Virus record (IMG/VR): IMGVR_UViG_3300032271_000233
Location: 1-23,381 of that record
DNA: 23,381 bases
Origin: a virus
Strand: one strand, 5' to 3'
The notes under the pieces are model-generated. The model saw only the letters and a program-made list of their open reading frames with translations. It was not told where the DNA came from and did not search any database. Of the stretch, positions 6,593-22,043 are shown in pieces; positions within the stretch are counted from its first letter, which is position 1, and each line of letters starts with the position of its first letter. The position numbers and the translations under genes were made by a program.

Positions 6593-7414
6593 TTAACGCT
6601 CCTTGGAAGCCATGATAAAGTCTGTCGTCAACGTCGAGGACGCTGCAGTACCAGACTGAATTGCAATCGTCAAGTTCAGGTTAGCAGTCGTCGGCGTCCA
6701 GATAGTGCTGGTCGGGTACAACGTCTGCGTAGCTGAAACGCCCATGGTCGCGACTGCACCTGGCGGCGGGAGGATGCTAACACCGGCGGAGTTAACACTA
6801 CCCGTACCAGACTGCGGTACATAACCAACAAGGGACGAACCAACGAAAGCCCAGACTTGCTGGTTACGGTCAACAAACCAACCCAAGTCGATGTACGTGC
6901 TATTGGCTAAAGTGTACGCCGAGGTTGGGATAGTAAGAGTCGTAGCCGTGCTACCAACAACGCTGATCAACTGAAGGTTGTTCAATGCTCCAGTGGCTTT
7001 GTAGAAGTACAAACCATCTGTAACCGTGAAAGGCGTCGTAGTAGTCTGGATCAAACCGGCAATAAAAGCTGCGTTGGTTGCGCTAGACAACTGCAACCGC
7101 GTGAGGAAGAAGCTCTTCTTACCCGCGGTGAAGGTGAAGCTAGCAGCCGGCAACTGCAACGACACAATATCGCTCGTCGCTGGCGTCGAGCTGTTCGTCG
7201 TCAAAAGCGCCGTACCACCATCAGCTGCGTTATGGGCTGACGTTCCGTTACCGGTCTTTGTCTGCGTCCAGATACCAGTCGTAAGGTTGGCATCAAAGTC
7301 GTCAAAGAACTGGTGGTAGAAGAACGGGTTGCCCATTCCGCACTGTGCTAGCGGCCCATACGGAGGATCCGTAGTGGCGCCAGATGGGTTTCGAATCGGA
7401 GGAGGACTTGGCAT
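6593..7414 (-). CDS. Capsid/neck-associated structural protein, possible lectin-like jelly roll (273 aa)
   Basis: 273 aa, rich in Thr, Ala, Ser and Gly. After a Pro-rich start (MPSPPPIRNPSG) comes 'FFYHQFFDDFDANLTTGIWTQTKTGNGT', then alternating beta strands (FLTRLQLSSA, AFIAGLIQTTTT, DGLYFYKATG, YIDLGWFVDRNQQVWAFVGSSLVGYVP). This is the layout of concanavalin/LamG-like beta-sandwiches found in phage virion proteins. It follows the major capsid gene after a 72-base gap that carries a palindrome, and has its own ribosome site (AAAGGA). A decoration or host-surface-binding role on the capsid is possible but not shown. The stop is one base before the next gene's ATG. Confidence 0.65.
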   Translation of the reverse strand: MPSPPPIRNPSGATTDPPYGPLAQCGMGNPFFYHQFFDDFDANLTTGIWTQTKTGNGTSAHNAADGGTALLTTNSSTPATSDIVSLQLPAASFTFTAGKKSFFLTRLQLSSATNAAFIAGLIQTTTTPFTVTDGLYFYKATGALNNLQLISVVGSTATTLTIPTSAYTLANSTYIDLGWFVDRNQQVWAFVGSSLVGYVPQSGTGSVNSAGVSILPPPGAVATMGVSATQTLYPTSTIWTPTTANLNLTIAIQSGTAASSTLTTDFIMASKER

Positions 7415-7441: not shown

Positions 7442-7475
7442 TGTGGACGTATACTCATTTGGGTATACGCCCACA
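7442..7475. promoter_or_regulatory. 34-bp palindrome, copy S1 (between capsid gene and next gene)
   Basis: The left arm TGTGGACGTATAC and right arm GTATACGCCCACA are separated by 8 bases. They pair over 13 bp with one A/C mismatch as plus-strand RNA, but with no mismatch (one G-U pair) in the transcribed minus strand. The same 34-base architecture recurs at 20546 and 20721. It follows the capsid stop (TAATAG) with no T-run, so it is not a standard terminator. It could be a protein-binding site, an RNA processing or stability hairpin limiting read-through after the capsid gene, or both. Confidence 0.75.
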
Positions 7476-19750: not shown

Positions 19751-19953
19751 TTCGGCACCGAGATGTTCGTGACACTAGACTTGTGGTTGTACGATTGGCG
19801 GGTAGGTTGTTTTTCCGTTGGCGGCTTCTGTTCAGAATCCGGTACGTTAGCTTCCTTCATGCAGTACGGCATATGTTGCTTGCCGGTCATGTTGGGAAGC
19901 GTGTAGTGCTTCATCGGCTTGCCGCTTGACGGCAACTTAATGCGATTCGACAT
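19747..19953 (-). CDS. Small basic protein of unknown function (68 aa)
   Basis: Start at ATG 19953 (MSNRIKLPSSGKPMKHYTLP), supported by AAGGAG 9 bases upstream. The frame continues open upstream to 20079, but that part lies in the small terminase gene in another frame and has no ribosome site. The gene overlaps the end of the small terminase gene by 17 bases and its stop overlaps the next start (ATGA). The protein is basic, Pro/Lys/Ser/Gln-rich and probably disordered after residue 35. I do not recognise a family. Confidence 0.65.
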   Translation of the reverse strand: MSNRIKLPSSGKPMKHYTLPNMTGKQHMPYCMKEANVPDSEQKPPTEKQPTRQSYNHKSSVTNISVPK

Positions 19954-20431
19954 TTGTAAATTCTCCTTCAATAGCTTGAGCTTTTTTCTGGTTGAGGAGG
20001 CCGACAAGCCGCTCGCCCAGTACGTTAAGGTGAACGTGCATATCGCCAGTGGCAATTTGAGGGGTGTTGTCTCGAGCACCGTAACCTAGGGCACGGGAGG
20101 AAAGCTCGAGGGTACGCAGGGCCAGGTTGTCGGGAATCTGGTGGGAAGGCTTGTTAAGCTTTTCGCGGATGATGTCAAGGGAGCGGGCAACGATACCCTT
20201 GAACTGTTCCTCTACGGTGGCACGCACTGTAGGATCAATAAGTTCTTTTGTACGTTCCGCCAGCCTCGACTGGAAAGCATCGGAAGAAATGATCTGGGAG
20301 ATCCAGGAAGGGGTGTAGCCGAACTTCGTTGCCAGTTCGTTTTGGGAAATGCCAGGGAACGCAATGATCTGATCAATCATAGCGTCATGGGTATAATGAA
20401 CCTTGGCAATTGCTTGCCCCTCTGTGCTCAC
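19937..20431 (-). CDS. terS: Terminase small subunit (probable)
   Basis: 164 aa from GTG 20431 with AGGAG 7 bases upstream. Residues about 15-50 (HDAMIDQIIAFPGISQNELATKFGYTPSWISQIISSDAFQSRL) contain a clear helix-turn-helix, 'SQNELATKFGYTPSWISQII', followed by a helical oligomerisation region (EEQFKGIVARSLDIIREKL, LALRTLELSSRALGYGA). This is the plan of small terminases that recognise phage DNA. It is the first gene of the late operon, directly after the promoter at 20465-20493. An alternative is a transcriptional regulator, but the ALRTLELSSRALGYGAR segment is typical of the terminase type. About 5.5 kb of fibre and small genes separate it from the large subunit. Confidence 0.75.
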   Translation of the reverse strand: MSTEGQAIAKVHYTHDAMIDQIIAFPGISQNELATKFGYTPSWISQIISSDAFQSRLAERTKELIDPTVRATVEEQFKGIVARSLDIIREKLNKPSHQIPDNLALRTLELSSRALGYGARDNTPQIATGDMHVHLNVLGERLVGLLNQKKAQAIEGEFTNVESH

Positions 20432-20464: not shown

Positions 20465-20493
20465 ATTCTAAGCCTGTTTTTTCAAGTAGTCAA
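20465..20493 (-). promoter_or_regulatory. Sigma-70-type promoter for the late (virion) operon
   Basis: On the minus strand TTGACT (20493-20488) and TAGAAT (20470-20465) are separated by exactly 17 bases, 5/6 matches each to the consensus boxes. The 27 bases upstream of the -35 (to about 20520) are nearly all A/T (TTTAAAATATATC), like an UP element. Transcription would start near 20458, leaving about a 27-base leader before the GTG of the small terminase gene. Confidence 0.8.
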
Positions 20494-20545: not shown

Positions 20546-20579
20546 TATGGACGTATACTCGAAGGGGTATATGGACATA
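20546..20579. promoter_or_regulatory. 34-bp palindrome, copy S2
   Basis: Arms TATGGACGTATAC and GTATATGGACATA flank an 8-base centre. The arms pair over 11 of 13 positions (one as G-T), and the two mismatches fall at arm positions 5-6. It lies 53 bases upstream of the late promoter's -35 box and is followed by CAATG, as copy S3 is. Confidence 0.75.
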
Positions 20580-20720
20580 CAATGAGAGGCGATTTGCGCG
20601 GCCAAAAAAGGGGGGTATATCATGGGTGCGGGTGGCCGTCGATCGCGTCACCATGGGCGTCTAATGCGGTTATACGGTGTTCGATCTCGGGGCGTTCCAT
20701 ATCAGAGCTGGTGCGCCAGG

Positions 20721-20754
20721 TGTGTCCATATATCTCGACGGGTATATGTCCATA
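20721..20754. promoter_or_regulatory. 34-bp palindrome, copy S3
   Basis: Arms TGTGTCCATATAT and GTATATGTCCATA flank an 8-base centre (CTCGACGG). The mismatches are again at arm positions 5-6. It starts 175 bases to the right of S2 in the same alignment and is also followed by CAATG. Like S1 and S2 it carries CTC-N4-GGTATA around the centre, except for one base. Confidence 0.72.
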
Positions 20755-20890
20755 CAATGTGGGAACTTTGCGCGCAGGAGAATGGGTTTAGCGCCCCCCA
20801 CGCGCTCAGCGATTTTCCCCCTCCCCGGCTGAGTATGTATCAAGTTGCCGGGCAAATGCGACTGATTCTCATTTGCAACTGAGTTGTGCG

Positions 20891-20992
20891 GTGCAACATT
20901 TCAGCACGCGCGTGCGGTTATGCTGCGGTGCAACAAAGGATGGTGGCATGGTGCAGTGCAACAAAACCCGGCTGGATTGTTGCAGTGCAACA
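20891..20992 (+). repeat. Four direct GTGCAACA repeats (iteron-like)
   Basis: Copies of GTGCAACA start at 20891, 20928, 20956 and 20985 (spacings 37, 28, 29). The last is part of a perfect inverted repeat, TGTTGCA-G-TGCAACA (20978-20992). A fifth GTGCAAC lies at 20526. The near-regular spacing of about three helical turns fits a protein-binding array for replication initiation or repression. Confidence 0.7.
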
Positions 20993-21043
20993 TAGAAGTC
21001 GGCGGCAAGTGGCGCGCACGCAACACAATAAAACTAACCGGAC

Positions 21044-21080: not shown

Positions 21081-21241
21081 TTGCATCCGTTGCGGAGTTC
21101 GATTAATCTACTTACATGGTGATTGACAACCACCTACGGACGCCCCAGCGGTGCTCCGCGTTTTTTAACAATCAGCCGCTCGCTATTTTTCTGACTTCCA
21201 TTTCGGGGGTTGGACGGGCGGCTTTTACATGGAGAAGTGAA

Positions 21242-21715
21242 ATGAAGTGCGAAGTGAACTTTTCGATTGAAGAAGTGCGGTTTGTGTCGGAAGAAGGTGA
21301 CATTGTTGGGTTAACACTCGGCACATTGTCAGACGACATCAAAAAGCAGCTCATGTTGCATGGGTTGAAGCAGAAGCTTGGTGATGCGGCTGCCATGTCG
21401 CGTGACCCAGTAACTGGTAAATCAGCGAGTGAGGGCGAGAAGCTTCTCGCGATTCGCGAAGTCGCCGATATGTTGCTTTCTGGCAACTGGACGAAGCCCC
21501 GTGGCGCATCTAACCTTGACTCGGACTTGGTGAAGGCTCTGATCGAATTGAAAGGTGAAGACAAAGCCCAGGCTATTCGTGCGGCAGTGAAGGGATGGGA
21601 CAAAGCCCAGAAGCTTGCCGTGTCGTTGAAGCCCGAAGTTGCCGCGATTATCCAGCGGCTGCAGAGTGCGAAGACTTCGAGCATTGACGTTGACGATATG
21701 CTGAGCGACCTGTGA
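21242..21715 (+). CDS. Conserved phage protein of unknown function (157 aa), probable early gene
   Basis: Start chosen at ATG 21242 (MKCEVNFSIEEVRFVSEEGD) because GGAG lies 7 bases upstream. The frame stays open back to 21116 but that extension has no ribosome site and odd composition. The core 'LSDDIKKQLMLHGLKQKLGDAAAMSRDPVTGKSASEGEKLLAIREVADMLLSGNWT' recalls a small protein common in environmental phages ('LP-x-x-V-x-x-x-L-x-L-H-G-L-x-Q-K-x-G-D...A-x-x-L-x-x-G-x-W'), whose role is unknown to me. The C-terminal half is helical and basic (ELKGEDKAQAIRAAVKGWDKAQKLAVSLKPEVAAIIQRLQSAK), then ends in an acidic tail (SIDVDDMLSDL). It is a one-gene unit closed by a terminator. Confidence 0.8.
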   Translation: MKCEVNFSIEEVRFVSEEGDIVGLTLGTLSDDIKKQLMLHGLKQKLGDAAAMSRDPVTGKSASEGEKLLAIREVADMLLSGNWTKPRGASNLDSDLVKALIELKGEDKAQAIRAAVKGWDKAQKLAVSLKPEVAAIIQRLQSAKTSSIDVDDMLSDL

Positions 21716-21749: not shown

Positions 21750-21896
21750 ACCTTGAAACCCTGGGAAGTGTGCATGGTACGCAGGCTACGCAACGAGAAG
21801 ATAGCATTGTACGCAGCCACACTACCACAACCACCACAACCACCATGTCGGGGGGCATACCTTTTGGTTCTCAGTTTTAATTGTCTAAGTGTTTTA

Positions 21897-21913
21897 TTTT
21901 TTTTTTTTTTTTT
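21897..21913 (+). repeat. 17-base T homopolymer
   Basis: Seventeen consecutive T, preceded by TTTTA. It sits in the centre of two inverted CA/GT-rich arms. Its length could vary by slippage or be a sequencing artefact. Confidence 0.9.
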
Positions 21914-22014
21914 CTTATAAGACATACAAACACAAGAGCCTGACGGGGCAAAAGGGTATGGGGGGATAAGGTGGTAGTGGTGGTAGTGATTGTTGTTGTG
22001 GTGTTATTACTTGG

Positions 22015-22043
22015 TTGACAAATGCCGCCGACTCGGGTATACT
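22015..22043 (+). promoter_or_regulatory. Near-consensus sigma-70 promoter for the small-gene cluster
   Basis: TTGACA (22015-22020, perfect) and TATACT (22038-22043, 5/6) are separated by exactly 17 bases. Transcription would begin near 22050 and give a leader of about 40 bases before ATG 22092. The -10 region, CGGGTATACTCC, resembles the core of the 34-bp palindromes (GGGTATA and GTATACTC). Confidence 0.88.

Follow-up and report, generated by a model that had tools for sequence, protein, structure and literature searches.

The stoperators of cluster A mycobacteriophages such as L5 and Bxb1 are dispersed sites that lie mostly outside promoters, and their consensus varies with the repressor (PMC6550527, PMC9283540). 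In phage SPbeta, the dispersed intergenic repeat SPBRE serves a single master regulator, MrpR, as operator (PMC10516654). The three 34-bp palindromes described here (S1, S2 and S3) come from a 23,381-base IMG/VR virus record, hereafter called the window, and belong to sets of sites that resemble stoperators in being dispersed and in having a phage-specific consensus. However, stoperators are asymmetric 13-bp sites, present in up to about 30 copies per genome, mostly in one orientation and served by a two-domain repressor, whereas the present phages carry 2-6 symmetric sites of 33-35 bp and a protein of about 60 aa, p60, that is tentatively ribbon-helix-helix (RHH)-like; a tyrosine integrase was not found here. 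SPBRE differs as well, being a 15-bp motif whose reader has a tyrosine-recombinase fold, and no such gene was found here. Stoperators and SPBRE, as dispersed operator sets for one regulator, are the closest working likeness, but site symmetry, site number and protein type differ, and we do not class the present set with either.

RHH regulators such as Arc, MetJ, CopG, NikR and AmrZ use residues of their strand to recognise short palindromic sequences in the major groove, and their sites are often paired. p60 is like them in having a residue in its predicted strand that varies with the core of the site; it is unlike them in having no significant family match and in the 24-25 bp that separate the box centres of its putative sites, and the inter-helix loop of the p60 model is longer than we had expected for an RHH protein. 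With loxP-type sites the elements share the length of 34 bp and the 13-8-13 build. This likeness is geometric only; the centres are not common to the copies, and a recombinase gene was not found.

We consider it likely that S1-S3 are operators of the early protein p60 and form a dispersed set in which S1 is also a hairpin. This would provide a function-level handle on a large uncultured phage family (309 capsid relatives from one query), with a candidate master regulator, its sites and testable swaps. The family also offers natural pairs of regulator and operator whose DNA specificity seems to shift with one residue, bearing on the co-evolution of a regulator with the full set of its operators and on the divergence of phage regulatory groups.

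Three palindromes in the window

The late genes of the window run leftward from the putative small terminase gene through a large terminase gene (phrog_38) and a portal-like gene to the capsid gene; the early genes, the first of which starts at 21242, point rightward (Table 1). The divergent control region contains S2 and S3, and S1 separates the capsid gene from the late gene after it. The product of the capsid gene has the 309 relatives in IMG/VR, and its matches in phage records carry the annotation major capsid protein.

Table 1. Features of the window discussed in the text
Feature	Position	Strand	Basis or remark
S1, candidate operator copy between capsid gene stop and next late gene	7442..7475	.	
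S2, candidate operator copy, edge 52 bp upstream of late promoter -35	20546..20579	.	
S3, second control-region candidate copy, 175 bp from S2	20721..20754	.	
First late gene, putative small terminase (terS), HTH-like	19937..20431	-	
Major capsid protein gene, 307 aa	7487..8410	-	transcriptionally immediately upstream of S1
Late gene after S1	6593..7414	-	
First early gene, conserved among relatives, without known family	21242..21715	+	
Sigma70-like late promoter TTGACT-17-TAGAAT	20465..20493	-	read from sequence
Possible early promoter TTGCAT-17-TAATCT	21081..21109	+	read directly from sequence

The original prediction had described S1-S3 as a gap-free alignment of 34 bases with two 13-base arms around an 8-base centre, and this build was confirmed. 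The arms are symmetric at 12 (S1), 10 (S2) and 9 (S3) of 13 positions. On the plus strand, the asymmetries of S2 and S3 fall at positions 5-6, plus wobble-type pairs, as had been stated, and the single asymmetry of S1, at position 6, is A.C on the plus strand and G.U on the capsid-sense strand. CAATG indeed directly follows both S2 and S3. The core pattern has six matches in the window against 0.72 expected, a number reached in none of 100 shuffles, and with a weight matrix S1-S3 score 40-44 bits while the rest of the window stays at or below 8. S1-S3 are the sole copies in the window, and chance is excluded. Two further sequences that had been related to the family do not belong to it: the "half-site" at 20611 has a weight-matrix score of -17, and the best 34-mer over the GGGTATACTC core at 22036 scores -9.7. 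As judged by reading the sequence, the latter core belongs to an ordinary promoter (TTGACA-17-TATACT, 22015-22043), of which it forms the -10.

Each 34-bp element consists of two short boxes (TRTGNNCRYA in the window), AT-rich flanks and a variable 8-bp centre, for which the three copies have TCATTTGG, TCGAAGGG and CTCGACGG; the box centres are 24-25 bp apart. The outer part of the arm is itself a short pseudo-palindrome (TATGNNCATA in the window, GTGTACAC in relative G028, GGCGCC in G003 and ACGT in G014), and the arm is flipped about its own centre in some copies (S2, S3 and the G014 copy at 48355). The flipped arms and the box spacing lead us to read the element as a pair of dimer sites and not as a single simple dyad.

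The 13-8-13 geometry would also suit lox-like sites of a tyrosine recombinase or sites of a recombinase-fold repressor such as MrpR, and a repressor of that fold acting on a dispersed intergenic repeat has a precedent in SPbeta (PMC10516654). However, the copies do not have the 8-bp centre in common, a difference that recombination would not tolerate, and PF00589 was detected in one of 25 contigs and was absent from the other 24, including contigs of 46-48 kb with terminal repeats, in a search that a very diverged recombinase-fold protein could escape. The differing centres together with the absence of PF00589 disfavour recombination sites, and we hold this explanation to be extremely improbable.

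Dispersed sites in related phages

The capsid search gave 309 relatives, of which 80 were retained, and the terminase search gave 30. Scanning IMG/VR for exact matches to the core pattern of the window returned none, because the arm sequences differ in the relatives. A DNA-level search of phage records for the elements and an Rfam search also returned no match, and an unanchored de novo palindrome search yielded low-complexity noise only; a search anchored on gene positions recovered sites where the de novo search had failed. The closest useful relative (G002/L088, TerL 78%) has the same layout, with a pair of sites ahead of terS and a single one past the capsid gene, and its counterparts of S2 and S3 are located at 37075 and 37283 of G002 (6887-6920 and 6679-6712 of L088), respectively. 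Past the capsid stop, other relatives have 13-8-13 palindromes with arms unrelated to those of the window. By automatic calling, which includes a few weak cases, about 60 of the 80 post-capsid regions hold a 33-35 bp palindrome, and 13 of the 80 a classical intrinsic terminator. In a cleaned set, 36 of 45 palindromes are exactly 34 bp long.

Each mapped relative (about 15 contigs) carries 2-6 copies of its own 33-35 bp palindrome, and the arm sequences are alike within one phage and different between phages. There are three copies each in G001 and G015, four each in G003, G014, G020 and G028, five in G002 and six in G022; the gene-position-anchored search found 2-3 copies each in G006, G007, G008, G013 and G023. 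In nine phages scored by weight matrix, the sites reach 29-46 bits against shuffle maxima below 15. Four locations recur. One lies upstream of terS and another just past the capsid gene; a third is close to the gene for the DUF3987 primase/helicase, with which the early operon ends, and in some phages falls in a convergent gap; the fourth is upstream of p60. All four are not occupied in every phage; the late-region site of G020 follows the gene after the capsid gene instead of the capsid gene itself, the DUF3987-side site of G013 and G015 precedes that gene, and one copy of G022 lies inside a long ORF. The sites are dispersed and intergenic with a phage-specific consensus, some of them falling within short or predicted ORFs of rough gene calls, and they are symmetric, without an asymmetric fixed orientation to transcription. 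Both the further copies and the conservation in relatives that the original prediction anticipated were thus found, which favours a regulatory site. Its suggestion of a phage-specific promoter element is not supported, since the elements have symmetry, convergent gaps hold some of them, and the nearby promoter is an ordinary one (where seen near the terS-side site, it is sigma70-like and about 50 bp away). Neither the candidate protein nor the S1 hairpin described below had been part of the original prediction.

Among the relatives with an intrinsic terminator after the capsid gene are L025-L030, L034, L036, L037, L040, L041 and L054. By eye, a promoter-like TTGCA-17-TACAAT or TATACT follows the post-capsid terminator in L025, L034 and L054, suggesting a transcription-unit boundary. 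Capsid relatives (57-62%) also occur in Gluconacetobacter, Bradyrhizobium and Sphingomonas genomes (L231-L241), apparently in prophages or derived elements, and several of these Gluconacetobacter species have similar post-capsid sequences.

A small early protein covaries with the site core

p60, an undescribed phage protein of about 60 aa, is encoded by a small early gene that is present in all 14 first-set relatives whose early region is covered. Further p60s were found later in other contigs, using models built from the known ones. In most cases, a few hundred bases separate the gene from the mid-early site upstream of it; the distance is 38 bp in G028 and about 2.5 kb in G001. The window stops short of this position, and its own regulator is therefore predicted, not seen. 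A search with a single p60 query retrieved only the query itself, and p60 was not found in the prophage-like loci of Gluconacetobacter, Bradyrhizobium and Sphingomonas or in the three whole genomes searched.

The sequence of p60 suggests a strand and, after it, two helices. An AlphaFold monomer from 14 sequences is in agreement as to the helices, with an extended N-terminus and helices at 19-29 and 41-57 (pLDDT 86); the model from a single sequence was poor. The sole fitting Pfam family was RHH_5, at a sub-threshold E value of 0.091, and Foldseek with the p60 model returned nothing convincing, its rows being at chance level. None of the profile and fold searches confirms RHH, and p60 is weakly assigned as RHH-like. 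Pfam searches of two early regions found no ParA/ParB and no integrase. TerS was considered as the site binder and rejected as recogniser, because its HTH is nearly constant across phages of different site classes.

One residue in the predicted strand of p60, x2, accompanies the site core: T or S occurs with ACGT, N with GCGC, E with CCGG and H with TGTGNNCACA. Among 15 phages whose sites were located without use of p60 residues, a shared x2 predicts a shared core (permutation p=5e-5). When core positions 3-9 were compared, in an arm register that we set from the pseudo-palindrome centres, x2 (column 5 of 46) was the best column (r=0.57; next column, 0.28). In a shift-free test on the whole arm, column 5 reached 0.50 vs 0.34 for strand column 7, and the permutation p was unchanged. 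In these alignments x2 is the best-correlating column, not the only one, and no correlation with the sites is seen for identity across the remainder of p60 (r=-0.03). The covariation of column 5 with the core corresponds, as a correlation, to the specificity that strand residues give to RHH regulators.

The relationship was tested on 15 further contigs, in which the class predicted from x2 was compared with the best-scoring class matrix, the matrices deriving from phages with known x2. The prediction was correct in 10 of the 12 contigs with a site (p=0.0015) and in 10 of 15 overall (p=0.002). It was wrong for L245 and gave a tie, counted as a miss, for L226, and no site was found in G005, G011 and L223; p60 is present in G005 and G011, and L223 begins just before p60 and may lack the site region. 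The p60 strand of L251 has S, H and T, as in G002, and its sites TGTGGCCGTATATCTCACCCGGTATGCGGCCACA and TATGTCCACATACCGCGTATGATATGCGGACATA are nearly the same as those of the window. With two H-type relatives having sites so close to the window's, an H-type p60 is predicted for the window phage, some kilobases beyond 23381; in G002, p60 is about 6 kb away from the terS-side sites.

The original proposal of a binding site for a dimeric regulator is well supported by the recurrence of the same kind of site at set positions and by the covariation of its sequence with a p60 residue, and p60 probably binds the elements. A bolder proposal is that one strand residue of this small regulator selects the operator core genome-wide, as a natural residue-to-base code, and that the post-capsid element works as both DNA and RNA; we see the chances for and against it as evenly balanced.

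The post-capsid element as a probable RNA hairpin

The RNA of S1 folds at -25.1 kcal/mol (z -5.8). In a comparison over eleven phages, more arm positions pair in the post-capsid copy than in the other copies of the same phage (11.0 vs 8.5 of 13, p=0.002). In 41 non-redundant post-capsid elements, which were selected for palindromy, the non-Watson-Crick pairs on the capsid-sense strand comprise 43 G.T vs 12 A.C (p=3e-5). This wobble bias is absent in the terS-side and DUF3987-side copies and borderline in the p60-side copies (16 to 6, p=0.05), and the flanks of the post-capsid elements are not keto-rich (0.52). The G.T excess could come from transcription-linked mutation bias. The pairing suggests that S1 is probably also a hairpin on the capsid (minus) mRNA. 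No T-run follows S1 on the capsid strand, so that the GC-rich stem plus U-tract of an intrinsic terminator is not seen at this site, and true post-capsid terminators occur in other relatives only.

The strong post-capsid hairpin and its tolerance of G.U would be expected if the elements acted as RNA only, that is, as intercistronic hairpins or terminators without a DNA-binding protein. The intrinsic terminators at the same place in 13 of 80 relatives are in line with this, as is the post-capsid terminator of isolate vB_Af_QDWS535, which has no p60. However, the other copies are poorly paired (60-64% Watson-Crick), S2 and S3 on the late strand fold no better than shuffles, and S1 is without a U-tract. 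In addition, an action through RNA only leaves unexplained both the sequence common to the copies of one phage and the covariation with p60, and we regard it as improbable.

Proposed mechanism

If the elements are operators of p60, the protein would bind them directly, probably with one dimer per box and two boxes per 34-bp element. Binding at transcription-unit boundaries may block or repress transcription in the manner of stoperators, p60 may autoregulate its own operon, and the S1 hairpin would probably protect or partly terminate the capsid transcript. A link of the sites to the early/late switch, as proposed originally, is plausible. The outcome of binding could be repression, blocked elongation or activation; the location of the sites at transcription-unit ends and boundaries, where other relatives and vB_Af_QDWS535 have intrinsic terminators, favours a block.

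Alternatively, p60 could be a late activator, and the sites upstream activating sequences. The late promoter is the best promoter-like site near S2 (p=0.02 vs stretches taken at random from the window). S2 does not overlap it but is placed about 50 bp upstream, which speaks against our operator reading. The terS-side site is located at a steady 48-58 bp or so upstream of a good sigma70 -35 in four phages (G000, G002, G020 and G014), which leaves room for activation. In G007, a promoter follows the post-capsid site at a distance of 32 bp, and MW202796, without p60, has a promoter-like sequence after the capsid gene, as read. However, the convergent-gap sites after the DUF3987 gene in G001, G003 and G014 have no evident promoter, a good promoter within 100 bp is absent at most post-capsid sites, and most copies show no enrichment of sigma70 promoters. 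We regard activation as rather unlikely.

Other features of the window and relatives

Several other repeats are present in the window. The control region has an inverted repeat at 20855-20882 that resembles a Fur box (minus strand, GCAAATGAGAATCAGTCGCATTTGC), and a similar AATGAGAATC repeat occurs upstream of terS in L118. A strong inverted repeat of TTGTTGCAGTGCAACA units (20948-20993; stem 17, loop 12) lies outside the S family, with more GTTGCA..TGCAAC copies nearby. The early leader region contains a run of about 20 T (21892-21914), followed about 60 bp later by a GGTGGTAGTGGTGGTAGTG repeat, beyond which lies the promoter at 22015. In G020, the DNA polymerase is divided between two genes (40533-43414), one fusing a uracil-DNA-glycosylase domain to an exonuclease-like part and the other carrying the polymerase A domain.
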